From positions 2,132,638-2,196,637 of the forward strand of contig CP166130.1 in NCBI GenBank assembly GCA_041228335.1: a stretch of DNA of 64,000 nucleotides. Reading direction: 5' to 3'. Origin of the DNA: Alphaproteobacteria bacterium LSUCC0684 (GTDB lineage Bacteria > Pseudomonadota > Alphaproteobacteria > Puniceispirillales > UBA1172). Positions 43,134 through 58,559 of this stretch are shown piece after piece. Position numbers and translations under genes: made by a program. Below the pieces are notes generated by a model. The model ran no database searches, had not been told where the DNA came from, and saw only the letters and a list, made by a program, of their open reading frames with translations. Numbering within the stretch: position 1 is the first letter of the stretch; each line of letters begins with the position of its first letter.

Positions 43134-44744
43134 TTACCCCAAAGATAATGCAAGGCGGATTGGCAACTCTCCCCTCAGGGTCTCATCGCTCAGCGGGTCG
43201 ATATAGCAAGGACAGTGCGATAGAAGGATCTGGCTGACGCGATCTTCCGCCACCTTTCGGATATCCGGACTTCCTGCTTCCTGCCATGCCTCAATACTGC
43301 TGCGGTCGGCAATTTCCGGGTAGAGAAAATCGGTGTGCATCCGGGCATAGGTATCCGCCTCACCCAGAAAATGACCCGCCCCTGTCGCCACCGCGTCAAT
43401 GGACGTGGCATTAAGGGTTTCCGGCGAGATATCCACTTTCGCCGTCGCCCTCAGGATCGCGCCCAGCATATCGTTGTCAATCACCATGGCGGCAAGCGAG
43501 ATCCCCATCAGGGCCGCCTGCGCGCCGCATGCCTGGGTGATGATATTGGCCCCTGCCTGCACCGTCTGTGCAACGGTCAGGCATTTCTCATACCCGCTCT
43601 GGGCATCCGGGATTTTGCTGTCCGTGGCGCCTGCAATGGTGGAGGAGGGCAGACCATAAAACCTTGCCATTTGCATTGAGGCCGCGGTGAGCAACGCCTG
43701 CTCGCCACTACCGCCGGCCATACCGCCGGTGCGCAGATCGGTGATCATCGGGCGAGGGCCGAACACCACCCTGGCCTTGGAGTCCACCAGAAAGGCAAGG
43801 ATCATCCCCGCCAGCGTCTCCGCTGTCGTCTGTGCCACGCATCCCGCAATCGTCACCGGGCTTGACGCGCCGAGCTGGCCAAAGGTATTGGCCATCACCG
43901 GAATGCCGCAACGGACCGCTTCGATCAGGACCAGTACCGCCTCGCCATCAAAACGAAGCGGCGGGACCACATGATTGATGTTGAGCGAAAGGAAAGGCCG
44001 CGCCCGGAAATCTTCTTCCGAGCCTGCCAGCTGATAACATATGCGGGCGATATCACGCACGTTTTCCGGAGTACCGGCGCTGACAATCACATGTTTGCGT
44101 GTGCCCGCGAGACTGGCATAGGCGGTGTTGATATCGAGATGACGCTGATCCGGCATATCCCTCGCTACTAAAGGCCGGCTGAAGAAATGGATATGAGGCA
44201 AGGTGTCAACCAGCCTTGCGGCGTTGTAGATATCGGCAAGGGTGCTTTCACGATAGCGGCCAAGCACGTTGTCATAGATCAATGGCGAGGCCCCGCCCGT
44301 GCCGACATGAACGTTGCCTGCCGCAAGTTCAAGATCGGTGTCGCCATCGCGGCCATAAAGGGTGATCTTGCGATGCAGTCCGGCGAGCGCCGCCTCAATC
44401 AGCTTTTCGGGAAAGAGAAGCCGCCCCCGGTCATCCAGCCTGCCGCCTGCCGCCCGGGCCAGTTCAACCGCCGCCGGTGGGGCACCGGCAAGCCCGGTTT
44501 CTGAAAGAAGCTTCCTTGCTGTTGCATCAATAGCCGCAACCCCCGCCTCATCCAGCGGGTTGAGATTGCCGCCACGGCCGATGATGCGCTGATTGGAAAG
44601 TGAGACCCGGGGATCACCCTCAGGCTTTTGCCCTCCAGCCCTTCTTCCACCACGCCCATTCCGGCTGGGGCGGCCAGCCCGAGTAGAATTATGCTCTCTC
44701 GAGGAGTTTGAGGTATCCACCGTTTTGCCTGCCTCATCCTTCAT
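43134..44744 (-). CDS. Trimethylamine methyltransferase family (MttB-like, non-pyrrolysine)
   Basis: 536 residues from ATG 44744; the frame continues to 44870 but that part is unlike the family. The first ~55 residues are disordered and rich in Arg/Gly/Ser. The rest is an MttB-type TIM barrel: GVAAIDATARKLLSETG, HVGTGGASPLIYD, LNINHVVPPLRFDGEA, NTFGQLGASSPVT, DSKIPDAQSGYEK. There is no in-frame amber codon, so it is a non-pyrrolysine member, as in the glycine-betaine (MtgB) and related branches. No corrinoid protein or activase gene is near. It lies 114 bases upstream of the FAD/GcvT oxidase and may act with it. Confidence 0.85.
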   Translation of the reverse strand: MKDEAGKTVDTSNSSREHNSTRAGRPSRNGRGGRRAGGQKPEGDPRVSLSNQRIIGRGGNLNPLDEAGVAAIDATARKLLSETGLAGAPPAAVELARAAGGRLDDRGRLLFPEKLIEAALAGLHRKITLYGRDGDTDLELAAGNVHVGTGGASPLIYDNVLGRYRESTLADIYNAARLVDTLPHIHFFSRPLVARDMPDQRHLDINTAYASLAGTRKHVIVSAGTPENVRDIARICYQLAGSEEDFRARPFLSLNINHVVPPLRFDGEAVLVLIEAVRCGIPVMANTFGQLGASSPVTIAGCVAQTTAETLAGMILAFLVDSKARVVFGPRPMITDLRTGGMAGGSGEQALLTAASMQMARFYGLPSSTIAGATDSKIPDAQSGYEKCLTVAQTVQAGANIITQACGAQAALMGISLAAMVIDNDMLGAILRATAKVDISPETLNATSIDAVATGAGHFLGEADTYARMHTDFLYPEIADRSSIEAWQEAGSPDIRKVAEDRVSQILLSHCPCYIDPLSDETLRGELPIRLALSLG

Positions 44745-44768
44745 GTATGGCAGCCTTTGACCACGTTG

Positions 44769-44790
44769 AGGTTTATTCTGATATAAACCT
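44769..44790. promoter_or_regulatory. Candidate operator: perfect 8-base inverted repeat
   Basis: AGGTTTAT and ATAAACCT flank a six-base centre in the 179-base divergent gap between the MttB-like gene and the binding-protein-like gene. It lies 25 bases before the MttB-like start. Size and symmetry suit a dimeric regulator. Confidence 0.45.
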
Positions 44791-44923
44791 TGATAAAGGG
44801 CAATCTTGCATTCTTTGAAAAGGTCAAAACCTCTGCAATGCGGAAATGGAGTTTTGATTTTTTTTGCCATGCGTGCGATGGATGAATTAAGGCATCATAA
44901 AGTATCCAGGTCAGGAGTTGGCA

Positions 44924-45664
44924 ATGAATAAAGAAATCATTGATGCATTAGCTCCCAAAGGGGTGCTACGCGCCGGCATAAATATGGCGAATTTTCTTCT
45001 GGTATCAGGCATACGACCAGATGGCACATTGGAAGGCGTCTCACCTGATCTGGCCAGAAGGATTGCCGCTGAGATAGGTGTCCCTTGCGAAATGATACCT
45101 TATGAAAGTCCGGGGGCGCTGGCTGATGCAGTTCGTGACGACGAATGGGACATTGCCAACATTGCCGCCGAAGCCGAGCGAGCGCAACAGATCGATTTCA
45201 GCCTGCCCTATGTCCAGATTGATGCAAATTTCCTGACCCGCAAGGATGCTGCCTTCACCAGCAATACCGATGTTGATAAAGATGGTGTCAGGATCGCCGC
45301 CTATGAGCGCAGTGCATATGACCTCTGGCTCACGGAAAACTTCACGCGTGCCTCTATGATCAGATCGGAATCCATTGCCCGATCGCATCAGGATTTCAAG
45401 GATGACAAGGCAGATGTGCTGGCAAGCCTGAAGCCAAAACTGCTAGAAGAGATAGCTGCAAACCCGGATTTCAAAATTATCGAGCCGCCTTTCACCGGGA
45501 TCAAGCAATCCGTCGGGATAAAAAAAGGAAACCCGGATGCACGCCGCTTCCTTGATACCCTGATCACTGATCTGATCGGCAGCGGTTTTATTGAGGCATT
45601 GATGGAAAAATACGGCGTTGACGAGAAACTAAGCATCCCTGCCCAGATCACTCAACCGGGATGA
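44924..45664 (+). CDS. Amino-acid-type solute-binding protein fold without signal peptide
   Basis: 246 residues from ATG 44924, with AGGAG six bases upstream. It has the family 3 solute-binding fold: GVLRAGINMANF..., GV.PDLARRIAAEIG, WDIANIAAEAERAQQIDFSLPYV, and AAYERSAYDLWLTENF at the hinge. There is no signal peptide or lipobox, so the protein should stay in the cytoplasm. No ABC permease is near. Cytosolic members may sense ligands or act as enzymes (cyclohexadienyl-dehydratase-like); here it may handle a cluster intermediate. Confidence 0.8.
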   Translation: MNKEIIDALAPKGVLRAGINMANFLLVSGIRPDGTLEGVSPDLARRIAAEIGVPCEMIPYESPGALADAVRDDEWDIANIAAEAERAQQIDFSLPYVQIDANFLTRKDAAFTSNTDVDKDGVRIAAYERSAYDLWLTENFTRASMIRSESIARSHQDFKDDKADVLASLKPKLLEEIAANPDFKIIEPPFTGIKQSVGIKKGNPDARRFLDTLITDLIGSGFIEALMEKYGVDEKLSIPAQITQPG

Positions 45665-45669
45665 TTTGA

Positions 45670-46800
45670 TCAGCTCATCTCCCTCGCGTACCATTTCGCG
45701 AAACTCGCAACATTCGGCTCAAGCAGGGGCTGAAACCGGCCTTGTCTTGCATTAGGATCACTAAGCCCCCGCTGCTGATTGACAAGGGCCGGAATATCTT
45801 CATCAAGGGCGGCATCAAGGCGGTGGTAGTAGGCTTTTACCCGATCTTCGAAATCATTCTGCTGGACTGTTTCCGGCGGGAAGCAGGCTGTTTGATAGAC
45901 TAGGCATCGGTTGGCCGCAAGAGGATACGCCTCATACATCCATAAAGCATCAACGCCTGCCGCAAAAGTCATGTTGGGGAAGATCCAGGTGTAACGTACA
46001 CCCGCAGCTTCCCTGTCCTTGAGCCCTGGCATGAGGGGGAGCGGCTTCTCTTGGGTTGTCTGCAGAAGCGCTCCCGTGCCTTCGGTGGAGCCAAACTGGG
46101 TTGCAAAATTCCCTTGAACCTCATCACCCGGATCAGGCGTTGCATAGAGATCATCGATCGAGTCCGGATGAACAAAGGGGAGATGATAATACTCATTGAA
46201 CACTTCAAGGAAAGCCTTCCAGTTACACTCGACCTCAAATCGCTGGCGGCGCGTCGAGATTAGATTTTCAACAGGCCATGGAGCATGGATGGCGGTAAAA
46301 TCGCCCAGTGCTTCATTCAGATCCGGTGCTGTCTCAGCCAGGCAGACAAAGATAAAGCCAAGGCGTTCAGTCACATGATAACTGATCAGGCTAAAATCTG
46401 ATTTGCAGAAGCCGTTTGCCGCCTCCATATGCGGGGCGCCAGCGAGACTGCCATCAAGTTTATAGGCCCAGCTATGGAACGGGCAACGAATACCGGCAAT
46501 CCGGCCAGCGCCATCAAGAAGACGCGCCCCGCGATGCCGGCAGGTATTGGCAAAAGCACGCAAATTCCCACCCTTATCCCTGATCAGGATGATAGACTGG
46601 CCAGCAAAATCAAGGCACATATACTCGCCTTCGCCAGCCACCTGATCCGCCCGGCCAAGACAGATCCAGTGGCGGCGGAAAATCCGATCCACCTCAACAT
46701 CAAGAACAGCAGGATCGGTATAGGCCGCAGGCGGCAGTGACCAGGCCTCATTGAGAGGTTTGTTGCAGTATGATAGTTTTTCCCTGAACTCTTCATTCAT
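45670..46800 (-). CDS. Rieske-type oxygenase alpha subunit (betaine demethylase-like)
   Basis: A 376-residue ring-hydroxylating-type oxygenase. The Rieske cluster is bound by CRHRGARLL...CPFHSW (C-x-H-x17-C-x2-H, residues ~85-108). The mononuclear iron site has NEYYHLPFVH near residue 200. Homologues GbcA and Stc2 remove N-methyl groups from glycine betaine and stachydrine as formaldehyde, and the surrounding demethylating oxidases favour that role. No reductase partner gene is in the cluster. The gene is 120 bases downstream of the aminotransferase. Confidence 0.88.
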   Translation of the reverse strand: MNEEFREKLSYCNKPLNEAWSLPPAAYTDPAVLDVEVDRIFRRHWICLGRADQVAGEGEYMCLDFAGQSIILIRDKGGNLRAFANTCRHRGARLLDGAGRIAGIRCPFHSWAYKLDGSLAGAPHMEAANGFCKSDFSLISYHVTERLGFIFVCLAETAPDLNEALGDFTAIHAPWPVENLISTRRQRFEVECNWKAFLEVFNEYYHLPFVHPDSIDDLYATPDPGDEVQGNFATQFGSTEGTGALLQTTQEKPLPLMPGLKDREAAGVRYTWIFPNMTFAAGVDALWMYEAYPLAANRCLVYQTACFPPETVQQNDFEDRVKAYYHRLDAALDEDIPALVNQQRGLSDPNARQGRFQPLLEPNVASFAKWYAREMS

Positions 46801-46920: not shown

Positions 46921-48201
46921 CTAGGCTCTTGCGGCGAGAGCGGAGGCGGCATGCTGAACCGCCTCTTTGGTCCGGGCAAGGTCTTCTTCGGTCAGGGCAA
47001 GTGATGGATAAAACTTGCTCGGCGACTTCAGGATACCTTGGGCGCGGAGAATAGTGTTATAGACAACGCCATCTTCAGGATCCTTATGCTTGGCGCTTCG
47101 GTAATCGACCGGATCCTGATCGGTGAAGAGGATATCAAAAAGCGAAGCATCACCGCATATCCGATGATCAATTCCGGCCCCGGAAAGCGCATCTGAAAGC
47201 ATCTCCTGGACACGTGATCCGCTGTTGCGCAATTGCTCATAACTGCCCGGACGACGCAGAATTTCCATTGTCTTGAGTCCGGCAACCGACGCCACCGGAT
47301 TGCCTGACAGCGTGCCAAGCTGCATCAGCCACTTATCACCACCAACAACCGTCTTGTCAAAATGCCGCATGATTTCAGCACTCGCGCCAAGCGCTGCGAG
47401 CGGAAACCCGCCCCCAATGATTTTTCCAAGGGTACAGATATCCGGCACCACGCCGTAATATTCCTGGGCTCCGCCATAAGCAAGCCTAAACCCGGTGACA
47501 ATCTCATCAAAAATCAGCACGACGTGATGACGATCTGCAAGCGAGCGCAATCCTTCGAGGAACCCGGGCTTTGGCGGGATGATACGTTGCAGGGGTTCGA
47601 CAATGATTGCGGCAATGTCATCGTGCTCGGCCAGTAGCGAGGCCACGGCATCAAGATCGTTGAAGGGAGCGATCAGCATCTGCTCTGCCACACTCCGGGG
47701 GATGCCGGCACTGTCTGGCACCGGCCGAGGAAAGTTGACTTCACGCGAAGGGGCAAGGCTCATCTGCGCTTCGGCGCTCATCCCATGATACCCGCCTTCA
47801 AATTTCACGATCCTGTCCTTGCCGGTATAGGCCCGCGCAAGGCGGATGGCATACATGTCCGCTTCGCCCCCTGAGGCAACAAACCTGACCTGCTCCACAC
47901 AAGGAGAAGCCTCGCAAATGGCGGCAGCCAACTCAATCCCGCGTGAATTATTGGCAAAGAAGGTCATCCCCAGGGGCAGTTGTTCCAGGACTGCCTCAAG
48001 CACTTCCGGATGACCATGGCCAAGCAGCATCGGCCCTGAGCCGATCAGATAATCTATGTATTGGGTGCCGTCTTCATCCCAGACATGGCTTCCCTTCCCG
48101 TGTGAGATGATAACGCTGTGATCAAAGTTCCCAAATCCACCTGCGGGAAGCACCTCTTTTGCCCGGGCAATCCATTCATCCTGCGTATGTATTTTTTTCA
48201 T
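46921..48201 (-). CDS. Class III aminotransferase, glutamate-1-semialdehyde aminomutase-like
   Basis: A 426-residue PLP enzyme. SGGEADMYAIRLARAYTGKD is the GSA-aminomutase-like phosphate region (core GGEA..A.RLAR), IFDEIVTGFR holds the pyridine-N Asp, and TLGKIIGGGFPLAA the PLP Lys. It is unlikely to be the haem-pathway HemL because it lies in a catabolic operon and has an altered N-terminus. It may transaminate or isomerise an amino-aldehyde formed from the ring of a proline-like substrate; that is inference. It starts four bases after the end of the next gene upstream. Confidence 0.88.
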   Translation of the reverse strand: MKKIHTQDEWIARAKEVLPAGGFGNFDHSVIISHGKGSHVWDEDGTQYIDYLIGSGPMLLGHGHPEVLEAVLEQLPLGMTFFANNSRGIELAAAICEASPCVEQVRFVASGGEADMYAIRLARAYTGKDRIVKFEGGYHGMSAEAQMSLAPSREVNFPRPVPDSAGIPRSVAEQMLIAPFNDLDAVASLLAEHDDIAAIIVEPLQRIIPPKPGFLEGLRSLADRHHVVLIFDEIVTGFRLAYGGAQEYYGVVPDICTLGKIIGGGFPLAALGASAEIMRHFDKTVVGGDKWLMQLGTLSGNPVASVAGLKTMEILRRPGSYEQLRNSGSRVQEMLSDALSGAGIDHRICGDASLFDILFTDQDPVDYRSAKHKDPEDGVVYNTILRAQGILKSPSKFYPSLALTEEDLARTKEAVQHAASALAARA

Positions 48202-48205
48202 CTGT

Positions 48206-49309
48206 TCAGTCCACTATCACATCCGCTGGCCCGAGGAGATCAAGATCAGGCTTCACGCCAAGGCCTGCGCCTTCAGGGGCGGTGATGCGCCCTCCTTTGC
48301 GTGACGGTGCTGCCGGATCCAGTCGCGGCCCCACATAGCCGGAAAGATCACAGACATTAAGCAATCGTCCCGGTTCCGTTGTAATCCCGAGATGCAGGGC
48401 AGCAGCGGTGGTGATATCACTGCCCCAGGTGTCTTCAATACACATTCTGGCCCCGAGATGCAGGCAGAGATCACGCGCCCGCCGCATTGCTGAAATCCCG
48501 CCAAATTTCGATAATTTGAGCGCCACCGCATCCATGATGCCAAGGCGATACCCTTCGAGAAGAGAGGCGGTATCATAGGCGGATTCGTCGAGCTTCATCG
48601 GCAAACCTGTTGCCGCTCGCACCATTGCGCATTCAGCCATCGTCCGGCACGGCTGTTCCAGCATGATATCAAGCCCTGAAACCGCTCGGCCGACCCGGCT
48701 TGCATCAAGCTGGGTTGCGCCGCAGTTCCAGTCCCCATAAACAAGAGGCCCAGCACCGACCGCTTCACGCACCAGGGAAAGACGTGCAGCATCTGCCTCC
48801 CAATTCTGATCTGCGCCAAGCTTCACCTGAAACTGCGTGATGCCCTCTTTCTGGGCATCACGGGCGATGCGTGCCATCTCTTCAGGGGCGATACAGGTGA
48901 TCGAATGATAGAGCGGCATATCCGCCTGCCGCCTGCCGCCAATAAGGGCATGAAGAGGCAGATCTGCCACCTGTGAGGTAAGATCCCAAAGCGCCATATC
49001 CAGCGGTGACTTGACGTAAGGATGACCTTGAAGATGGGCATCGACTTTCCCCATTACCGCTTCCGGGCCTATTGGGTCACTGCCCAGCAAGACCGGGGCA
49101 AGTTCGGCAACGGCCGGAGCAATACCCCGGGCATAGGCAGGCAGATAGTGCGGGATGGGGCAGGCCTCACCCCAGCCGCGTCTGCCGCAGGTCGTCTCAA
49201 TCGAAAGAACAACGGTTTCGACCGTCGCGCAGGTCTTGCCTTCTGCCATGTAATAGGTCTCATGGCTGGTAAGCGGAATATGCCAGATGGAAATGCGCTT
49301 TATTTTCAT
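48206..49309 (-). CDS. Enolase-superfamily enzyme 1 (MR/MLE; hydroxyproline dehydratase or betaine epimerase-like)
   Basis: A 367-residue muconate-lactonising-type enzyme. The first catalytic Lys is in FQVKLG (~165), metal ligands follow in VYGDWNCG, MLEQPC and MKLDES, and the second Lys is in LKLSKFGG (~267). The Lys-Lys pair across the active site allows proton abstraction on either face. Relatives include cis-3-hydroxy-L-proline dehydratase and 4-hydroxyproline-betaine 2-epimerase. It is the third of three tandem paralogues and overlaps enzyme 2 by ATGA. Confidence 0.87.
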   Translation of the reverse strand: MKIKRISIWHIPLTSHETYYMAEGKTCATVETVVLSIETTCGRRGWGEACPIPHYLPAYARGIAPAVAELAPVLLGSDPIGPEAVMGKVDAHLQGHPYVKSPLDMALWDLTSQVADLPLHALIGGRRQADMPLYHSITCIAPEEMARIARDAQKEGITQFQVKLGADQNWEADAARLSLVREAVGAGPLVYGDWNCGATQLDASRVGRAVSGLDIMLEQPCRTMAECAMVRAATGLPMKLDESAYDTASLLEGYRLGIMDAVALKLSKFGGISAMRRARDLCLHLGARMCIEDTWGSDITTAAALHLGITTEPGRLLNVCDLSGYVGPRLDPAAPSRKGGRITAPEGAGLGVKPDLDLLGPADVIVD

Positions 49310-50412
49310 TTGAACACCATTAAAGGATTGCCAAGACTGCCTTCATCAGGATGCACCCCAAGACCCGGAACCTCAGGCAGTTGAAGATGGCCATCCCTGT
49401 TCCGCGGCCCGCGACCACCGGCGATATCCACGGTCAGCATGTCCTGGCACGCCCATACCGCGTGACAGTTCGCATCGGGGATGGTTGCGGCCAGATGCAG
49501 GGCTTCGGTGTCGGCCAAGACAGAACCACCCGTAGCCATGATGAACATGTCTATACCATGGGCAAGAGCGATATCCCGCATGCGGGCAGCCTTGGTCAGC
49601 CCGCCCACCCGATTGAGTTTGATCCCGAATATCTCCGCCAGCCCCTCCCGGGCCACCCGCGCCGCATCCTGCAGGGTGACCAGACACTCATCCACGCTGA
49701 CGGGGGTTGAGTGTTTACCTGAAATGGAGGCGATATCGTCCAGGGTTTCTCCGGGTTGCTCGACCATGATATTCAGGTCTTCAACCGCGCTCAGCACCCG
49801 CAGCGCCTGCTGGCGGGTCCAGCCGCGATTAACGTCATAGAGCACGATCTCGCCTGGCTTGCGGATCTCTTCAACATCACGGATACGGGCAATGTCACGT
49901 TCAACATTGCCGCCGATCTTGACCGAGTGGGCAATGTAGCCTCGCGCCCGATATCGTTCAATTACCTCCCGGGTTTCCTCTACTGTCTTGGCACCTACCG
50001 ATGAAGCGATCGGACGCGGGGTGCGTGATCCGCCACCCATCAGGTCAGCGATCGGCAATCCCGCCGCCTGCCCGGCTATATCCCAGCAAGCCATATCTAT
50101 GGGGGATTTGGCGTAAAGATGGCCAGGAAGTGAAAGGTCCATGGCGCGTTCCACATCAAGATACCGGCGGGGGTCAAGCCCGAGGATGAAAGGTGCCATG
50201 GTCTCAATCCCGGCCCTGATACCCGGTCCGTGGGCGGGGACATAAGTGTGCCCCCAGGGCGTGCCCTCCCCCCAGCCGACGAGACCTTCATCAGTTTCAA
50301 CCTTGACCAGGGTTGCGTCCAGCACTTCAAACTTCAGCCGCCCACCGGAAAGCCAGTAGGGATGCTCAAGCGGCAGATCAACCTGATATACAGTAATTCG
50401 TTTGATCTTCAT
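49306..50412 (-). CDS. Enolase-superfamily enzyme 2 (MR/MLE)
   Basis: 368 residues from ATG 50412 (frame open four codons earlier). Active-site residues: Lys in HSVKIGG, metal ligands in LYDVNRGW, MVEQPG and VSVDEC, Lys in FGIKLNRVGG. The capping-domain loop (LSGGRLKFEVLD, GEGTPWGH) differs from its two neighbours, so a different substrate or reaction is likely. It overlaps both neighbours by ATGA, giving coupled translation. I place it nearest to dehydratase/epimerase members acting on proline-type betaines, with moderate certainty. Confidence 0.87.
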   Translation of the reverse strand: MKIKRITVYQVDLPLEHPYWLSGGRLKFEVLDATLVKVETDEGLVGWGEGTPWGHTYVPAHGPGIRAGIETMAPFILGLDPRRYLDVERAMDLSLPGHLYAKSPIDMACWDIAGQAAGLPIADLMGGGSRTPRPIASSVGAKTVEETREVIERYRARGYIAHSVKIGGNVERDIARIRDVEEIRKPGEIVLYDVNRGWTRQQALRVLSAVEDLNIMVEQPGETLDDIASISGKHSTPVSVDECLVTLQDAARVAREGLAEIFGIKLNRVGGLTKAARMRDIALAHGIDMFIMATGGSVLADTEALHLAATIPDANCHAVWACQDMLTVDIAGGRGPRNRDGHLQLPEVPGLGVHPDEGSLGNPLMVFK

Positions 50413-51521
50413 GGCGCAACCCAATAGGTAGCCACTGGAGCGCCCAGACTTTCAAAGTCCGGCACCACACCAAGCCCGGGGGCATCGCTCGCAAAAAGCT
50501 TTCCATCCAGAACCTCGGGGCCGCCTTTACCTGTGCTGGCTGTGTTGTAATTCATCAGGTCCGTTGAGTTGATCAGAAACTCCTCTGGCGTTGATGCCGC
50601 GAAATGCGCCACCACTGCGGTGGTAATTTCGCCACCCCATGTATCTTCGGCAACAACGGGCATGCGGTTTTCCACCAGATAGTCGCGCACGCGCCGGGCC
50701 TTGCTCAACCCGCCAAGATTGGAAATCTTGAGGCAGCAGATTTCCGCGCCGCGATCATGGACGATCTGTTGCGCCACCTCCATCCCCGTCAGGCATTCGT
50801 CAAGTTTCATCGGTTGCGTTGCCACCCGTCGCACCTGCTGGCATTCCGCGTATGTTTTACAGGGTTGTTCGAGGATATAATCGAGATCCCTGGTGGCCCG
50901 CACAACACGGATGGCGTTGTCCACCCGCCATCCCTGATTAGCATCCGCCATGGCCTTCTCTCCCGGCAATAGAAGCTCCACCCCCGCGCGGATGCGGTGG
51001 ATATCTTCAGCCCAATCCATCCCAACCTTGATCTGGAACTGCCGGTACCCTTGTGAACGATGGGCTGCCATTTCGGCTTTTGTTTCCTCAAGTGGTTTCT
51101 GCGGCGCGACCCGATACATCGGTGCCCCATCGGTCAGTTTTCCACCCATCAGCATCCATAGCGGCTGATCGCTTGCCTGCCCCAGAATATCCCAGCAGGC
51201 GGCATCAAAAGGTGCCTTGGCATAGCCATGTCCCTCTATAAGATGATCCATCAGTCGTTCGATTTTTGTCACCTGACGGGGATCTTCGCCAAGCAATGAT
51301 GGTGCAACAAGCCTTGCCAGCGCCTCAACGCCCTCAGAATGAGCGCGCATGTAATTTTCCCCGCAAGGCGTGAATTCACCGCATCCCTGAAGGCCGGCAT
51401 CGGTATCGATTACCACCACCGATGCTATCGCAATCTTCAACATGTTACCCGCTCCCCAGACATAGGTTCCGCCAACATAAGGAAGAGCTTTCTTGTAGAT
51501 ACGGATGCGCGTGATCTTCAT
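50409..51521 (-). CDS. Enolase-superfamily enzyme 3 (MR/MLE; cis-3-hydroxyproline dehydratase-like)
   Basis: A 370-residue protein with Lys in FQIKVGMDW, metal ligands in MADANQGW, ILEQPC and MKLDEC, and Lys in LKISNLGG. FQIKVG, ANQGW and EDTWGGEITTA fit the cis-3-hydroxy-L-proline dehydratase branch better than its neighbours. That enzyme loses water to give pyrroline-2-carboxylate. First of the three tandem paralogues and coupled to the MDR gene upstream by ATGA. Confidence 0.88.
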   Translation of the reverse strand: MKITRIRIYKKALPYVGGTYVWGAGNMLKIAIASVVVIDTDAGLQGCGEFTPCGENYMRAHSEGVEALARLVAPSLLGEDPRQVTKIERLMDHLIEGHGYAKAPFDAACWDILGQASDQPLWMLMGGKLTDGAPMYRVAPQKPLEETKAEMAAHRSQGYRQFQIKVGMDWAEDIHRIRAGVELLLPGEKAMADANQGWRVDNAIRVVRATRDLDYILEQPCKTYAECQQVRRVATQPMKLDECLTGMEVAQQIVHDRGAEICCLKISNLGGLSKARRVRDYLVENRMPVVAEDTWGGEITTAVVAHFAASTPEEFLINSTDLMNYNTASTGKGGPEVLDGKLFASDAPGLGVVPDFESLGAPVATYWVAP

Positions 51522-52600
51522 GGGCAGACCACAATATTGCCGGTATGTTTTTTCTCGATGAACGCGGCTTGCGCTTCCCGCAACCGATCAAGCGGATAGA
51601 CTGCCGCCAGCACCGGTTTGACCGATCCATCCTCGATATATCGAACCAGCCTGGTCATGACTTCGGGATCTATCACCGTTGATCCGGTAAAGGTCAGGTC
51701 ACGCAAGTAAAAGGTGCGCAGATCAAGCTCGACCATTGGCCCGGCTATCGCACCTGAACAGGTATAGCGTCCGCCGCGCTCAAGGACATCGATCAGTTGT
51801 GGCCATATAGGTCCGCCGACGATATCTGCCACAACGGTGATGGTTTCGCCCTTCAGTTCCGCCTTGAGGTTTGTGGGCGCGCGCGGTAGCACCCTTGCCG
51901 CACCCAGCGCTATTACCTCTGGCTGCTTTGCTTCAGAGGCAAGAGCAATCACGCGGGCACCCCGACGTTTTGCCAGTTGCACAAGCGCGCTGCCGACGCC
52001 TCCGGATGCTCCGGGCACCAGCACCGTATCCTTGCCCGTGACCCCAGCCCTTGTCAGCATCCCTTCTGCCGTTGAATACGAGCAGGAGAAGGTAGCAAGT
52101 TCCGCATCCGAAAGGCTGGAGTTGACCGCAAGAGCGTTTGATGACGGGATCACCGTATATTCGGCAAAACCGCCATCACTTTCCGAGCCAAAATACCCAG
52201 TCTTGTTCTTGTTGTCTGGATCGTTTTCATCACGCAGCCAGTTATCCGTAATCACCCTCTCCCCAATCCGGGATGGATCCACGCCTTCGCCGACATCGAC
52301 AATCTCACCGCAGACATCCGCGCCCTGTATCCGGGGAAAGACAATCGGGGTGCCGCCCCAGGCGGGATCTTCGCTGTTGACTTCAGCAAAGGCGCCACCG
52401 GTGGTCGCTTCGGTCACGGCCTTGGAATACCAGCCCGAACGCGTGTTCACGTCGGTGTTGTTGAGCCCGCAGGCACCAACGCGGATGAGCACTTCCCCCG
52501 GGGCAGGAGCAGGACAAGGCCAGTCTTCATGAAAGACCATCTGGTCCAGGCCGCCATGGCCCATGGTCACCATAGCCCGCATTGTCCGAGGGGTTGTCAT
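51518..52600 (-). CDS. Zinc-free MDR oxidoreductase, quinone reductase-like
   Basis: A 360-residue medium-chain dehydrogenase/reductase. The N-terminal GACGLNNTDVNTRSG lacks the catalytic-zinc Cys, and no four-Cys lobe is seen, so it belongs to the quinone-oxidoreductase (zeta-crystallin-like) side. NADP(H) binding is at VPGASGGVGSALVQLAKRRG. Its place between the oxidase and the dehydratases suggests reduction of an unsaturated ring or enal intermediate; the substrate is unknown. Overlaps both neighbours by four bases. Confidence 0.85.
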   Translation of the reverse strand: MTTPRTMRAMVTMGHGGLDQMVFHEDWPCPAPAPGEVLIRVGACGLNNTDVNTRSGWYSKAVTEATTGGAFAEVNSEDPAWGGTPIVFPRIQGADVCGEIVDVGEGVDPSRIGERVITDNWLRDENDPDNKNKTGYFGSESDGGFAEYTVIPSSNALAVNSSLSDAELATFSCSYSTAEGMLTRAGVTGKDTVLVPGASGGVGSALVQLAKRRGARVIALASEAKQPEVIALGAARVLPRAPTNLKAELKGETITVVADIVGGPIWPQLIDVLERGGRYTCSGAIAGPMVELDLRTFYLRDLTFTGSTVIDPEVMTRLVRYIEDGSVKPVLAAVYPLDRLREAQAAFIEKKHTGNIVVCP

Positions 52601-55056
52601 GCCACCGCCTCCTTTCCTTGATCGGCCCGAGGCAGTAGACTTGCCGGGTCATATACCGGACCTTCCAGCACGATGGCGGAGCGTCTTCTGCCTGCAATAA
52701 CAACCTCAAGCGCTGTGCCCGGCCCGGCGGCATACGGTTTGATATAGGCAAAGGCAAGAATTTTCCCGACCGTATGGCCAAAGACAACCGACGCCGTCGA
52801 GCCTACCACCTGATCATTCATGAGCACCGCTTCCCCGCCATTTCCATCTTCTACGCCATCAGGTTCAATCTCCAGATAGGCGCAGACCCAGGGAAGGTTG
52901 TTCCTATTGGCCAGGGTGGCGTCCTTGCCCAAAAAGTCCTTGTCTTTATGGACAAAGCGCATCACACCTGCTTCGGGCAGGGTGACTTCATTGGTCAGTT
53001 CACTTGCGCCCTTGAAGGCTTTCTCCATTCGCATCACATTCATGGCGAATGATCCATAGTCGGTGATCCCGTATGATTCTCCGGCTCGGGTCAGCGCCTT
53101 GTATACATCAAGGCAGGCGGCGTTTGGCATATGAAGCTCCCAGCCAAGTTCGCCCGCATAGGACATCCTGAGTGCCCAGACCTGATGACCGGCGATCGTT
53201 ATTTCCTGACCCGTGAGCCAGCGGTAATTTGCGTTATCAAGCCGTGCATCAGTGCATTGGGTGAGCACCTCTCGTGTCATCGGGCCGTTGATCGCCAGCG
53301 CCGACCAGTCGCCTGAAAGTGCGTCTATCGTCACCTTCTCATCGCGGCGGTGCTGCTCAAGATGGTCAAGAAGTCGCTGCTCAAAAAACGCCGCACAGAC
53401 GAGATAATAGCAGTCCTCGCTCATTTTCAGGATGGTTGTTTCAACCTCAATCCGTCCACGTCTGTTCAGCATATGAGAAAGGGCAATCCCACCCACCCTT
53501 GACGGCAATTTATTGGCGGTAAGCCGGTCAAGCAGATCATGCGCATCCGGCCCGCTGACAAGAATTTTTGTAAAGGCGGTGATGTCCATAATGCCAACGG
53601 ATTGGCGCACGGCCCTGACTTCATGCGCCACCATGTCATGCACCTCATTCCGCCGGAACGAGTAGTGATCTTTCTGCGTAACACCTCCTCGGGCAAACCA
53701 GCGTGGCCGCTCAAAGCCGTAAACTTCCTCATGCACCGCGCCTTTTGACTTCAACAGCTCATATAGAGGAGAAGTCTTGACCGGCCTTCCTGCCAGCCGA
53801 TTGAAATGAGGAAACGGGATTTCATGGCGCAGGCAGTAATCCTCCTTTGCCTTGATGATCTGCCATTCCTTGGTGGCGTAGCTTCCAAAACGTCGTGGGT
53901 CATACTCCCGCATGGAGATATCGGCGGCGCCATGAACCATCCAGCGTGCCAGTTCACGCGTCAATCCCGGCCCCCAACCGATGCCGATCTGGGTGCCGCA
54001 ACAGCACCAGTAATTCCTAACCCCCGGGGCCGGGCCGATCAACGGGTTGCCATCAGGCGGGTGCGATATTGCCCCATGCACCTCGCGGGTGATCCCCAGA
54101 TTTGCCAGGACAGGCATCCGGTTGAGGCTTTCTTCAAGCCAGGGCATGACGCGTTCGTAATCAGGATCAAAAAGCTCGTTTTCCGCATCCCACGGGCAGT
54201 GATCTTCCCAGACAGTGTTCGGATTTTCCTTCTCATAAATCCCGATCAGCCCCCTCTTCTGTTCCATGCGGATGTAGCCTGAAACCTTGCGGTCGTCTCG
54301 GATTACCGGAAGTTCGCGTTCCAGATCAGCAAATTCAGGCACCGGTTCGGTGACAAAATAATGGTGCGTCATCGACGTCATGGGCAGTTGCAAGCCAGAC
54401 CATTCCCCCATCTGGCGTGCATAGGTTCCGCCGGCATTGACCACATGCTCGCAACGAATTGACCCCTTTTCGCTTTCAACAAGCCACTCACCACAAGCCA
54501 ACTGGGTGATGTTCGTGGCGCGGCACCGCCGGATAATCCGGACACCAAGATTTCGTGCCCCCATGGCCATCGCCATGGTGACATTGGACGGATCGACATG
54601 CCCATCATCAGGCGTGTGAAGTGCGCCAAGCACCCCTTCAAGATTATAGAAAGGATGCAATTCAGCCACCCTGGCCGGGCCAACAAGCTCAATATTGAAA
54701 CCAAGCGCCCGCCCCACGGAAAGCGTATGCCTGAGCCAATCCATCTCATCTTCTGTATAGGCCAGCCGGAAGGACCCGCAGCCATGCCATGTCACCGGCT
54801 GTCCTGTTTCGGCCTCAAGACCACCAGCATAGAGCCCGATGTTGTAATCGACGCATTTGCCAAGACCGAACGAACTGGTTGAATGCGTGATCTGCCCCGC
54901 CGCATGCCAGGTGCTGCCGCTGGTAAGCTCGGCCTTTTCGAGAAGGACAACATCGGTCCAGCCTTCATGCGCTAGGTGATAGGCCAGCCCGCAGCCCATC
55001 ACCCCGCCACCAACAATGACCACTTTTGCCTGCGCCGGAAAATTCTCTTCAGCCAT
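52597..55056 (-). CDS. DMGDH/sarcosine-dehydrogenase-like FAD and GcvT domain oxidase (second copy)
   Basis: 819 residues from ATG 55056 (MAEENFPAQ), chosen because GAGG lies seven bases before it; ATG 55068 is the alternative, and the longer frame to 55365 runs into the divergent regulator. FAD loop GGGVMGCGLAYHLA, covalent-flavin His in STWHAAGQIT, then GcvT-type domains with GELGWELHMPN and a C-terminal VFGHTVGKILAFAYIK. It resembles the 40554 protein in plan but is clearly diverged. First gene of the coupled minus-strand operon, facing the RpiR gene. Confidence 0.9.
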   Translation of the reverse strand: MAEENFPAQAKVVIVGGGVMGCGLAYHLAHEGWTDVVLLEKAELTSGSTWHAAGQITHSTSSFGLGKCVDYNIGLYAGGLEAETGQPVTWHGCGSFRLAYTEDEMDWLRHTLSVGRALGFNIELVGPARVAELHPFYNLEGVLGALHTPDDGHVDPSNVTMAMAMGARNLGVRIIRRCRATNITQLACGEWLVESEKGSIRCEHVVNAGGTYARQMGEWSGLQLPMTSMTHHYFVTEPVPEFADLERELPVIRDDRKVSGYIRMEQKRGLIGIYEKENPNTVWEDHCPWDAENELFDPDYERVMPWLEESLNRMPVLANLGITREVHGAISHPPDGNPLIGPAPGVRNYWCCCGTQIGIGWGPGLTRELARWMVHGAADISMREYDPRRFGSYATKEWQIIKAKEDYCLRHEIPFPHFNRLAGRPVKTSPLYELLKSKGAVHEEVYGFERPRWFARGGVTQKDHYSFRRNEVHDMVAHEVRAVRQSVGIMDITAFTKILVSGPDAHDLLDRLTANKLPSRVGGIALSHMLNRRGRIEVETTILKMSEDCYYLVCAAFFEQRLLDHLEQHRRDEKVTIDALSGDWSALAINGPMTREVLTQCTDARLDNANYRWLTGQEITIAGHQVWALRMSYAGELGWELHMPNAACLDVYKALTRAGESYGITDYGSFAMNVMRMEKAFKGASELTNEVTLPEAGVMRFVHKDKDFLGKDATLANRNNLPWVCAYLEIEPDGVEDGNGGEAVLMNDQVVGSTASVVFGHTVGKILAFAYIKPYAAGPGTALEVVIAGRRRSAIVLEGPVYDPASLLPRADQGKEAVA

Positions 55057-55117
55057 ACCATGCCTCATAGAAATATAGTCTGGACAGCATAATAATACAA
55101 ATATACCATAGTCAATC

Positions 55118-56005
55118 ATGAATGAGACAAATGTATTATTTCCTGTTCTTGAGCGTCTTGCCGGCGAGTTGACCGATCTCACCCCTGAAGTGCGGAAGGC
55201 GGCAACATATGTTCTTGAGAATCCCCAGGATGTCGGGGTGCTGACCGTGCGTGAGATTGCCAGCGCCGCCAAGGTGAATCCGAACACGGTTGTGCGGATG
55301 GCGCGGCAGGCAGGATTCAAGGGATATGATGATTTCCGCGCGCCGTTCCGTGATGCGATCCGCAAGGGGGCAGCGGAATTTCCTGACCGTGCCCGATGGC
55401 TTCAGGATGTTCGGAAAAAGGGAGCTTTGGGCGAAGTCTATGCCGATATGGTCCAGCACGCATTGAGCAATATCGAAGAGACCTTTGCCGGCATTTCCAT
55501 CGAACAGCTGGTAGCGGCGGCAACCGCGATCTGGGAATCGCGCAATGTCTACACACTTGGAGTTGGTGTCAACAATTCCAACGCGCGCAATTTCACTTAT
55601 CTGGCGTCAACGGGCATGGTGCAGTTTCACGCCATCCCCCGCCCGGGATCAACACCGGTGGATGATCTCGCCTGGGCGGATGAGAGGGACGTACTGATTG
55701 CGATCACCTGCAAGCCTTACCGGACTGAAGTGGTCGAGGCGGTGAAAATCGCCGCCGAGCAGGGGATGACCATTATCGGGATTTCCGACAGCCCGGCCAG
55801 CCCGATTATCCGTGGTGCCGATCACGGGTTTAACATTTCGGTTGAGACGCCGCAGTTCTTTCCGTCTTCGGTCAGCATCGTCGCACTTCTGGAAACCCTT
55901 TTATCGATTGTTGTTTCGGTTGCCAGTGAAGAAATTGTTGATCGGGTGGAGAAATTCCATCAACGACGACATCAACTCGGCCTTTATGTTGAGGACAGTC
56001 AATGA
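55118..56005 (+). CDS. RpiR/MurR-family transcriptional regulator
   Basis: A 295-residue protein: N-terminal HTH_6 domain (LTPEVRKAATYVLENPQDVG..., helix-turn-helix near SAAKVNPNTVVRMARQAGF) and a C-terminal SIS sugar-phosphate-type fold (~125-260) with LGVGVNNSNARNF and ITCKPYRTEVVE. It starts 61 bases from the divergent oxidase gene, in an AT-rich gap that must hold both promoters, so it very likely controls both arms. The SIS ligand would be a cluster intermediate; this is inference. Confidence 0.92.
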   Translation: MNETNVLFPVLERLAGELTDLTPEVRKAATYVLENPQDVGVLTVREIASAAKVNPNTVVRMARQAGFKGYDDFRAPFRDAIRKGAAEFPDRARWLQDVRKKGALGEVYADMVQHALSNIEETFAGISIEQLVAAATAIWESRNVYTLGVGVNNSNARNFTYLASTGMVQFHAIPRPGSTPVDDLAWADERDVLIAITCKPYRTEVVEAVKIAAEQGMTIIGISDSPASPIIRGADHGFNISVETPQFFPSSVSIVALLETLLSIVVSVASEEIVDRVEKFHQRRHQLGLYVEDSQ

Positions 56006-57099
56006 GCCAGCCAATCCTGTCGCTTGAAGCGCAGTTTTACACCGACCCGCAGATTTTCGAAATCGAGCAGCGAGGGCTGCTTTCCGAGACCTGGCAGTTT
56101 GGCTGCCATGCATCGGACATCCCGTCTCCGGGCAGTTATATATGTTTTGAGATTGCCGGTGAGAGTCTCTTTGCCATGCGCGGCCGTGATGATGAAATCC
56201 GGGTCTTCTACAATGTCTGCCAGCATCGCGCGCACCAACTGATCAAGGGCCGTGGCCGCGCCCCTTCTATTGTCTGCCCATATCATGCGTGGAGCTATAA
56301 TTTTGATGGTAGCTTGCGTACAGCTCCAAATATCGATGTCGTCGACGGCGTGGACACGTCACGCATCTGCCTTACCGAAGTGCGGGCTGAAGAATTCCTC
56401 GGCTTCGTTTTCATCAATCTCGACCCGGATGCCGCCCCGATGGACGAATGGTTTCCGAATGCACGGGCTGAGCTCATGGAATGGGTGCCGAACTGGGCTG
56501 AACTCAGGCCCCTTGAATGGGTGGAAGTGGAAGAGAGATGCAACTGGAAGGTTTCGGTTGAGAATTATTCGGAATGCTACCATTGCTCGCTTAACCATCC
56601 GACCTTTTCAAATGGTGTTGTCAAGCCCGAAACCTATGATATCCAGCCGCAAGGGAAATGCCTGAGGCATACGACGGAATGCCAGAACCTTGCCGACATG
56701 ACTTATGATATCCAGTCCGGTTTTGCCCACCATGACCAGTATTCGAGCTGGTTTCTGTGGCCGATGTTCAGTTTTCAGGTCTATCCGGGCAACGTGCTCA
56801 ACACCTATCACTGGCGCTCCATTGGTGTCGACCGCGTCATTGTCTGGCGCGGCTGGTATTCTGCCGGAGGCGCCGAAAACGCGACGGTGCGCAAACTTGC
56901 CATTCAGGACCGGCAGACCACGGTTGAGGAAGATATCCATCTCGTCGAGTCCGTCCAGCGCGGGCTTAAATCTCGTGGATATCGCCCGGGCCCGCTCGTG
57001 ATTGATCCCGAATGCGGCGTCAATTCAGAGCACCCGATCATGCATCTGCAACGCTGGATACGGGAGGCGGTTGAGCCTGCCAAAGACCCCGGGGCATGA
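56002..57099 (+). CDS. Rieske-type oxygenase alpha subunit (second, demethylase-like)
   Basis: A 365-residue protein with Rieske ligands in CQHRAHQLIKGRGRAPSIVC-PYH (C-x-H-x17-C-x2-H) and the iron site in SECYHCSLNH. Its start overlaps the regulator stop by ATGA. It is about equal in length to the 45670 protein but differs in sequence. GbcA-like N-demethylation is the best guess from context. A dedicated reductase component is absent, so an electron donor must come from elsewhere. Confidence 0.88.
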   Translation: MSQPILSLEAQFYTDPQIFEIEQRGLLSETWQFGCHASDIPSPGSYICFEIAGESLFAMRGRDDEIRVFYNVCQHRAHQLIKGRGRAPSIVCPYHAWSYNFDGSLRTAPNIDVVDGVDTSRICLTEVRAEEFLGFVFINLDPDAAPMDEWFPNARAELMEWVPNWAELRPLEWVEVEERCNWKVSVENYSECYHCSLNHPTFSNGVVKPETYDIQPQGKCLRHTTECQNLADMTYDIQSGFAHHDQYSSWFLWPMFSFQVYPGNVLNTYHWRSIGVDRVIVWRGWYSAGGAENATVRKLAIQDRQTTVEEDIHLVESVQRGLKSRGYRPGPLVIDPECGVNSEHPIMHLQRWIREAVEPAKDPGA

Positions 57100-57116
57100 T
57101 CTGCGGAGGTAATGAG

Positions 57117-58559
57117 ATGAGATACTACCAGAACTATATCAACGGCAAATACATCGATGGTGGCGCAGGAAGGATTGACGTGACCAATCCGGCCACTGGT
57201 GAGGTGATTGGCCAGCATGCGCTTGCTGATGCGGCGGATGTGGACAAGGCGGTGGCCGCTGCGCGCGCCCTTCACGTGTCGGGACGGTTTTCCGGCTTAA
57301 GGCCGGTGGAACGCGGGCGCATGGTGCAAGCCATGGGCCGATATCTTCTGACAGAGAAGGATGAGCTCGCGGCACTCCTTACGCTCGAGCAGGGCAAACC
57401 CCTATGGGAGAGCCATATCGAGATCGAAGGAGCGGCCCGGTATTTCGAATATTACGGCAATCAGGCGGAAACCGTTGAAGGCAGATCAATCCCCCTCGGG
57501 GATGGGTATCTTGATTTCACGGTACATGAACCTTACGGCGTTTCCGCCCAGATCATCCCGTGGAACTATCCGGTTGAAATGACCGCCCGTTCACTTTCAG
57601 CGGCGCTTGCCACCGGCAATGCCACGGTCATCAAGTCCCCTGAACTCACCCCGCTCACCCATTACATCTTTGCCCGCGCCGCCGAAACTGCCGGCCTGCC
57701 GGATGGGGCCGTCAATTTCCTCTGCGGTCTTGGGCATGAGGCTGGCGCGGCGCTTGCGTCCCATCCCGGGGTCAACCAGATCGTCTTCACGGGATCGGTG
57801 GCGACCGGCATCGCGATTGCTACCGCGGCAGCGCAAAATATCGTCCCCGCTGTGCTTGAACTAGGGGGCAAATCGGCTGCGATCGTGCATGAAGATGCGG
57901 ATCTTGACGCGTTTGAACATGACCTCCGCTGGGGGATCTTCTTCAATGCAGGGCAGGTCTGCTCGGCCATGTCGCGGGTTATCGTGCATTCATCCCGACA
58001 TCAGGAGATGCTGGAACGGGCGGCGAAGGTAGCCAATTCCCTCAAGGTGGATGAGGGCAGCAACCTGCCCGAGTTTGGCGCCAATATGGGGGCGATGGTC
58101 TCAACCGCCCAACGTGACCGCGCCGAAGCCATGATCGCCAACGCCGAATGCGAAGGGGCGAAGATTATCACCGGCGGGCATCGGCTCAACCGCGAAGGGG
58201 CGTTTCTCGAGCCCACCATCCTTGCCTGTGAGGCCGATACAAGCATCGCCCGAGAAGAAGTCTTCGGCCCGGTCCTGAGCGTCATCAGTTTTGATGATGA
58301 CGAGGACGCCATCGCCAAGGCAAATTCAACCGAATACGGGCTGGTGGCAGGGATCTTCACACGTGATCTTGACCGCGCAACGGCCGCGGCTAGCCGCCTA
58401 AGAGCCGGGCAGGTTTTTGTCAATGAATGGTATGCCGGCGGGGTTGAAACGCCTTTCGGTGGCTATGGCAAATCCGGCTATGGCCGCGAGAAGGGCCGCG
58501 AAGCTTTATGGAATTACGTGCAGACCAAGAACATCGCCATCCGCTGTCGTCAGCACTGA
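57117..58559 (+). CDS. NAD(P)-dependent aldehyde dehydrogenase
   Basis: 480 residues from ATG 57117, with GGAGG upstream. It has the ALDH set: PWNYP.E near 150 (VEMTARSLSAAL follows), FTGSVATG, general base Glu in LELGGKS, nucleophile Cys in NAGQVCSAMSR, and EVFGPVLSV. It would oxidise an aldehyde from the pathway, for example a betaine-like aldehyde or alpha-ketoglutarate semialdehyde. Last gene of the regulator arm. Confidence 0.92.
   Translation: MRYYQNYINGKYIDGGAGRIDVTNPATGEVIGQHALADAADVDKAVAAARALHVSGRFSGLRPVERGRMVQAMGRYLLTEKDELAALLTLEQGKPLWESHIEIEGAARYFEYYGNQAETVEGRSIPLGDGYLDFTVHEPYGVSAQIIPWNYPVEMTARSLSAALATGNATVIKSPELTPLTHYIFARAAETAGLPDGAVNFLCGLGHEAGAALASHPGVNQIVFTGSVATGIAIATAAAQNIVPAVLELGGKSAAIVHEDADLDAFEHDLRWGIFFNAGQVCSAMSRVIVHSSRHQEMLERAAKVANSLKVDEGSNLPEFGANMGAMVSTAQRDRAEAMIANAECEGAKIITGGHRLNREGAFLEPTILACEADTSIAREEVFGPVLSVISFDDDEDAIAKANSTEYGLVAGIFTRDLDRATAAASRLRAGQVFVNEWYAGGVETPFGGYGKSGYGREKGREALWNYVQTKNIAIRCRQH

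Follow-up and report, generated by a model that had tools for sequence, protein, structure and literature searches.

E1, E2 and E3, three adjoining genes of the enolase superfamily, are three non-redundant families of different ancestry. They lie in an operon within the window (the whole 64,000-nucleotide stretch of DNA that was analysed, from Alphaproteobacteria bacterium LSUCC0684). E3 belongs to the minimal form of this operon; E1, E2, the dehydrogenase ADH and, in relatives, a DddQ cupin are accessory. We infer, with a probability of roughly 0.55, that in marine bacteria the operon serves to break down at least one N-methylated amino-acid betaine, with the proline/3-hydroxyproline type as the most likely class; the inference extends to the substrate and to every reaction. 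The genes in window coordinates are:

45670..46800, minus strand: Rsk1, a second Rieske oxygenase, downstream of AT3
46921..48201, minus strand: AT3, a class-III aminotransferase, glutamate-1-semialdehyde aminomutase-like; in the minimal operon
48206-49309, minus strand: E3, MLE-subgroup enzyme of 367 aa with Cys320; in the minimal operon
49306-50412, minus strand: E2, MLE-subgroup enzyme of 368 aa, orthologue of PDB 3EEZ; accessory
50409-51521, minus strand: E1, MLE-subgroup enzyme of 370 aa, orthologue of PDB 2RDX; accessory
51518..52600, minus strand: ADH, a zinc-type medium-chain dehydrogenase (MDR)
52597..55080, minus strand: FADGcvT1, an FAD oxidoreductase fused to a GcvT folate domain, N-demethylase type
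55118..56005, plus strand: RpiR-type regulator (HTH_6 and SIS)
56002..57099, plus strand: Rsk2, a Rieske oxygenase, carnitine-monooxygenase-like, with a bridging Glu (NYSECYH)
57096..58559, plus strand: ALDH, an aldehyde dehydrogenase of the betaine-aldehyde/semialdehyde type

Two starts were revised. E2 starts at the ATG at 50412, which is conserved among relatives, rather than at the TTG at 50424 in the open reading frame list. Homologues of 817-825 aa place the FADGcvT1 start near 55,075, versus a listed TTG at 55365. ATGA overlaps were located at ADH/E1 (51518-51521), E1/E2 (50409-50412) and E2/E3 (49306-49309), and the E3 and AT3 genes are separated by 4 bp without overlap. The sequence-only reading had described three tandem enolase-superfamily genes in an ATGA-coupled chain, and this description is correct for the minus-strand frames. 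ATGA junctions recur in relatives (E2|E3 in 46 of 62, E1|E2 in 22 of 43, cupin|E1 in 22 of 25 and ADH|cupin in 28 of 31), so the arrangement is more than chance.

Rsk1 and Rsk2 both have Glu at the bridging position, and the best solved relative of the Rieske neighbours is carnitine monooxygenase (210 bits). With Rieske and ring-hydroxylating domains and closest relatives that act on quaternary amines, they are predicted to be quaternary-amine Rieske monooxygenases, with scores under the GbcA equivalog cut-off. A Rsk1-type gene is also found downstream of AT3 in a SAR116 locus (L071). ADH probably corresponds to SPO1593, a gene close to dddQ. Further methylated-amine genes flank the operon on the minus strand: an MttB-type methyltransferase (43134-44870) with a score under the cut-off of the pyrrolysine family, and another FAD-GcvT fusion (40554-43019). 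On the plus strand, 44918-45664 encodes a family-3 solute-binding fold without an obvious signal peptide. Among solved structures it comes closest to ancestral cyclohexadienyl dehydratases (61 bits), and the product may be a cytoplasmic enzyme or an orphan rather than part of a transporter.

E1, E2 and E3 match Pfam MR_MLE_N and MR_MLE_C far above the cut-offs. All three carry Lys163 and Lys265 (HpbD numbering) and the ligands Asp193, Glu218 and Asp241, and thus have the domains, Lys pair (on strands 2 and 6) and metal ligands of the MLE-type subgroup. These residues are invariant in 43 E1, 80 E2 and 71 E3 orthologues, and the sequence-only reading had already noted them in the window's three. 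Its second statement, that the capping loops differ, is also true: the 20s and 50s loops and the barrel-end loops are distinct among the three enzymes. In the 50s loop, residue 54 is Glu in E1 and His in E2 and nearly all E3. At 292-298 the sequence is E-D-x-W-G-G-E for E1, M-A-x-G-G-S-V for E2 and E-(D/C)-x-W-G-S-D for E3. Position 320 is Thr in 43/43 E1, Trp in 80/80 E2 and Cys in 71/71 E3. E2 is the only one of the three with Trp320, which is found in both betaine epimerases (2PMQ and 4E8G) and also in 2QDD. In HpbD, this Trp is presumably the residue that contacts the quaternary ammonium nitrogen. Positions 320-321 are Thr-Asp in E1 and Cys-Asp in E3; 4MGG has Thr-Asp.

By pairwise comparison, E1 shows 79% identity to 2RDX from Roseovarius nubinhibens (673 bits) and E2 shows 87% identity to 3EEZ from Silicibacter pomeroyi (741 bits). 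E3 has no close solved relative, and its top match is 4MGG (262 bits). The scores against the cis-3-hydroxyproline dehydratase model are 395 (E1), 320 (E2) and 315 (E3), all below the curated cut-off of 500. An AlphaFold model of E3 (mean pLDDT 88.9, with residues 22-24 of the 20s loop poorly predicted) matched 4MGG best, with Z 50.9 and 365 residues aligned at 1.9 A; 4E8G/4IZG came second (Z 49). Other solved relatives follow close behind, and the fold match says nothing on function.

The three genes adjoin, are alike in length and share one fold, and could have arisen by recent tandem duplication and been retained as redundant enzymes that raise gene dosage. This explanation is scarcely credible. 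The three enzymes share only 33-36% pairwise identity, about as low as with other families, and each has an active-site signature that does not vary within the family. E1 was placed as sister to the 4MGG group (97/91) in an 81-row tree, with E2 as sister to the 2QDD group (97/96) and E3 weakly joined to HpbD/proline betaine racemase (86/65); in a smaller tree the E3 placement was not fixed. 2PMQ and 4E8G form a separate clade, with E1, E2 and E3 all outside it. Trees constrained to one E1+E2+E3 clade were rejected (AU p 8.5e-9). Rejection also followed when the clade was widened to include the 2QDD group (p 0.005) and when only E1 and E2 were joined (p 1.3e-4). An earlier constraint test was set aside because an E2 relative (R_L018) fell outside the constrained group. 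The AU tests rule out triplication in place, and E1, E2 and E3 genes are also gained and lost independently. The view that the triplet is not a simple duplication, to be supported by separate clades in an MLE tree, is borne out by the tree tests and the family-specific residues.

Gene content in relatives was compared in 80 loci picked by E2, mostly from Roseobacters with some SAR116 and other marine bacteria; the set is rich in Ruegeria and its members are thus not independent. In the conserved layout, Rsk2 and RpiR are on one strand and FAD-GcvT, ADH, E2, E3 and AT3 on the opposite strand, with DddQ cupin and E1 genes in some loci between ADH and E2. E2 and E3 are found together in 74 of the 80 loci, and all three enolase genes in 41. 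In a SAR116 relative (L013), a 2QDD-like enzyme occupies the E2 slot. About 30 of the 80 loci have an arylmalonate-decarboxylase-like gene and a Sulfotransfer_5 gene beside Rsk2 (e.g., L039:2893-3714 and L105:844-1584).

A sample of 198 genomes, the family of one operon-bearing genome, contained E3 in 35 genomes, E2 in 23 and E1 in 12. E3 was present in 23/23 E2 genomes (adjacent by coordinates in 21) and in 11/12 E1 genomes; 12 of the 35 E3 genomes lacked a close E2. Nine loci from these twelve genomes showed FAD-GcvT, E3 and AT3, usually with Rsk2 and RpiR opposite; some show fewer genes, due to a contig end or a gene that was not recognised. ADH is added to this minimal set in L123, and a DddQ cupin sits between FAD-GcvT and E3 in L120. 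In L117 the gene order is ADH, cupin, E1, a 2QDD-like enzyme (in the E2 slot), E3 and AT3.

Three genomes (L028, L042 and L078) have a split system. ADH, DddQ, E2 and AT3 form one operon, with E1 in two of the three, and Rsk2, FAD-GcvT and E3 form a separate operon elsewhere. Loss of E3 from these genomes was considered and dismissed, since E3 was located in the separate demethylation module. The split operons and the minimal loci tie E3 to N-demethylation and mark E1 and E2 as additions. The sequence-only reading had suggested successive or stereochemically distinct steps. Distinct functions agree with the data; successive steps are not supported, given E3 without a close E2 in 12/35 genomes and E1/E2 operons without E3. 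One core enzyme with two optional feeder enzymes would fit better than an obligatory three-step chain. In the loci L109, L110 and L111, a PcaC-like carboxymuconolactone decarboxylase gene lies near the demethylation module (family scan on the L111 copy), and in L109 a proline-racemase-family gene and a pyrroline-5-carboxylate-reductase-like gene are nearby.

We favour an N-methylated amino-acid betaine as the substrate because of the quaternary-amine-type Rieske enzymes, the FAD-GcvT demethylases, ALDH and the proline-derivative relatives of the enolases. The nearest characterised relatives act on proline derivatives: 4MGG, and in the same group hydroxyproline betaine 2-epimerase and proline betaine racemase (PMC5144071). 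In one split-system genome (L110), a BCCT betaine-type transporter gene adjoins the module, which supports the same reading. Breakdown of a betaine (onium amino acid) in the broad sense is likely; the specific 3-hydroxyproline-type route is doubtful.

In the proposed pathway, Rsk2 and the FAD-GcvT enzyme would each remove one N-methyl group. E3 would then take the alpha-proton from the (hydroxy)imino acid, and epimerisation or dehydration would lead to pyrroline-2-carboxylate, whose ring would open to 5-amino-2-oxovalerate. AT3 may convert this compound to 2-oxoglutarate semialdehyde, which ALDH would oxidise to 2-oxoglutarate. We assign the putative AT3 substrate by family resemblance alone: AT3 resembles the enzyme for another C5 amino-oxo acid, glutamate-1-semialdehyde. 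An acyclic amino acid would suit the transaminase just as well. The scores of all three enolase-superfamily enzymes under the cis-3-hydroxyproline dehydratase cut-off, and a regulator of the RpiR family, also count against the proposed reading. E2, with Trp at the betaine-epimerase place, may epimerise the quaternary betaine, and E1, near cis-3-hydroxyproline dehydratase, may handle a different hydroxy or stereo form; both would supply extra isomers to the core. The E2 module without demethylases in the three split-system genomes fits poorly with an E2 role before demethylation.

The characterised hpb pathway uses the same enzyme classes, namely a Rieske enzyme, an FAD demethylase and an MLE epimerase, and the operon could be an ordinary hpb-type pathway for 4-hydroxyproline/proline betaine, in which each of the three epimerases takes a different isomer and the chemistry is already known. 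HpbD (2PMQ/4H2H) and proline betaine racemase (4E8G/4IZG) have the same fold and bases as the window enzymes, with demethylation enzymes nearby, and Trp320 of E2 is shared with them. However, E1, E2 and E3 are 28-37% identical to these enzymes and lie outside their clade, E2 has Met-Ala-x-Gly at 292-295 instead of Asp-Asp-x-Trp, and no DHDPS-family gene, as in the known 4-hydroxyproline pathway, was found in the scan of window genes near the triplet. We hold this alternative to be unlikely.

RpiR regulators are more often tied to sugar phosphates. The RpiR protein with its SIS domain, together with the many sugar-acid dehydratases in the superfamily, could point to a sugar-acid pathway in which the three enzymes are acid-sugar dehydratases under RpiR control. 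Yet they fall in the MLE-type group near proline-derivative enzymes, and their constant partners are the Rieske and FAD-GcvT demethylases, so this role is very improbable.

Among characterised enzymes, 4MGG stands closest to E3 in structure and to E1 in sequence (41% identity, with E1 as sister to its group). It has the same Lys pair and metal ligands, Trp295 and, as in E1 and E3, Thr/Cys-Asp at 320-321. It differs in that E1-E3 score under the curated family cut-off, E1 has Glu54 and E3 His54 in the 50s loop, and their operon has Rieske and FAD-GcvT demethylases. 2RDX and 3EEZ, the orthologues of E1 and E2, are Roseobacter structures labelled putative, and no activity for either was found in the open literature searched. 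The same search returned no papers on 3EEZ, 2RDX, 4MGG or 2QDD, or on dddQ with mandelate racemase/muconate genes; earlier notice of the operon is possible. The operon occurs widely among Roseobacters and SAR116-like bacteria, both of them abundant in the sea, and crystal structures for two of its enzymes date back to 2007-2008. Three differently descended enolase-superfamily enzymes side by side provide a natural set for the study of scaffold tuning.

A DddQ cupin is present in the operon of 43 of the 80 loci, between ADH and E1/E2 in most of them. The operon cupin matches 4LA2 and 5JSO (295 bits) and PF16867 above the cut-off, and all six catalytic residues (Y120, H123, H125, E129, Y131 and H163) are present in 45/45 cupins. 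In the 198-genome family sample, 34 genomes have a DddQ-like cupin, and in 15 of these it lies no more than 2.5 kb from an E gene; the positions taken include at least three slots. The window and its operon showed no cupin; the sole PF16867 gene of the window genome is outside the operon (L108, G000:C1:182005-182454), next to an unrelated 434-aa frame. DddQ and E1 as mutual substitutes were ruled out, since they co-occur above expectation (28/12/14/18, Fisher p 0.03, a test that ignores relatedness).

In the dddQ neighbourhoods of R. pomeroyi (SPO1593-SPO1596) and R. nubinhibens (dddQ1/dddQ2), dddQ is probably co-transcribed with an MDR gene of the same type as ADH (PMC3338564). The window operon differs in the lack of a cupin, and the published note covers the MDR gene and not a betaine-type operon. 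DddQ acts with higher efficiency on DMSOP than it does on DMSP (PMC10686828), and its cupin family includes enzymes without assigned function, according to the title of Lei et al. (2018) as cited in PMC8163506.

An accessory module of ADH, DddQ, E1, E2 and aminotransferase might break down a sulfonium compound, e.g., an osmolyte that resembles DMSP and is substituted at position 2 or 3, with the sulfonium bound by Trp320 and dimethyl sulfide eliminated by DddQ. The intact cupins inside the operon, the higher efficiency of DddQ on DMSOP and the module found without N-demethylases would fit such a role. In most loci, however, the module is fused with N-demethylases, the nearest characterised relative of E1 acts on hydroxyproline, and the dehydrogenase beside dddQ did not rescue acrylate sensitivity (PMC3338564). 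Taken as a whole, the sulfonium route is quite improbable.

With amino-acid betaine catabolism as the preferred function, we tentatively suggest that DddQ might be mainly an elimination enzyme of the betaine/onium operon that uses an E1 or E2 product, a pathway intermediate, as its substrate, with DMSP activity as a side reaction; this is possible, on balance doubtful. DddQ serves as a marker enzyme for the formation of the climate gas DMS. If the suggestion is true, dddQ counts in ocean surveys partly count a betaine/onium pathway and not DMS production. The operon gives DddQ, whose physiological role has been questioned, a testable context of demethylation and transamination. Two further loci, L124 and L131, have both ADH and a DddQ-like cupin (side by side in L124) and none of the three enolase genes, which suggests that ADH and the cupin function as a pair.
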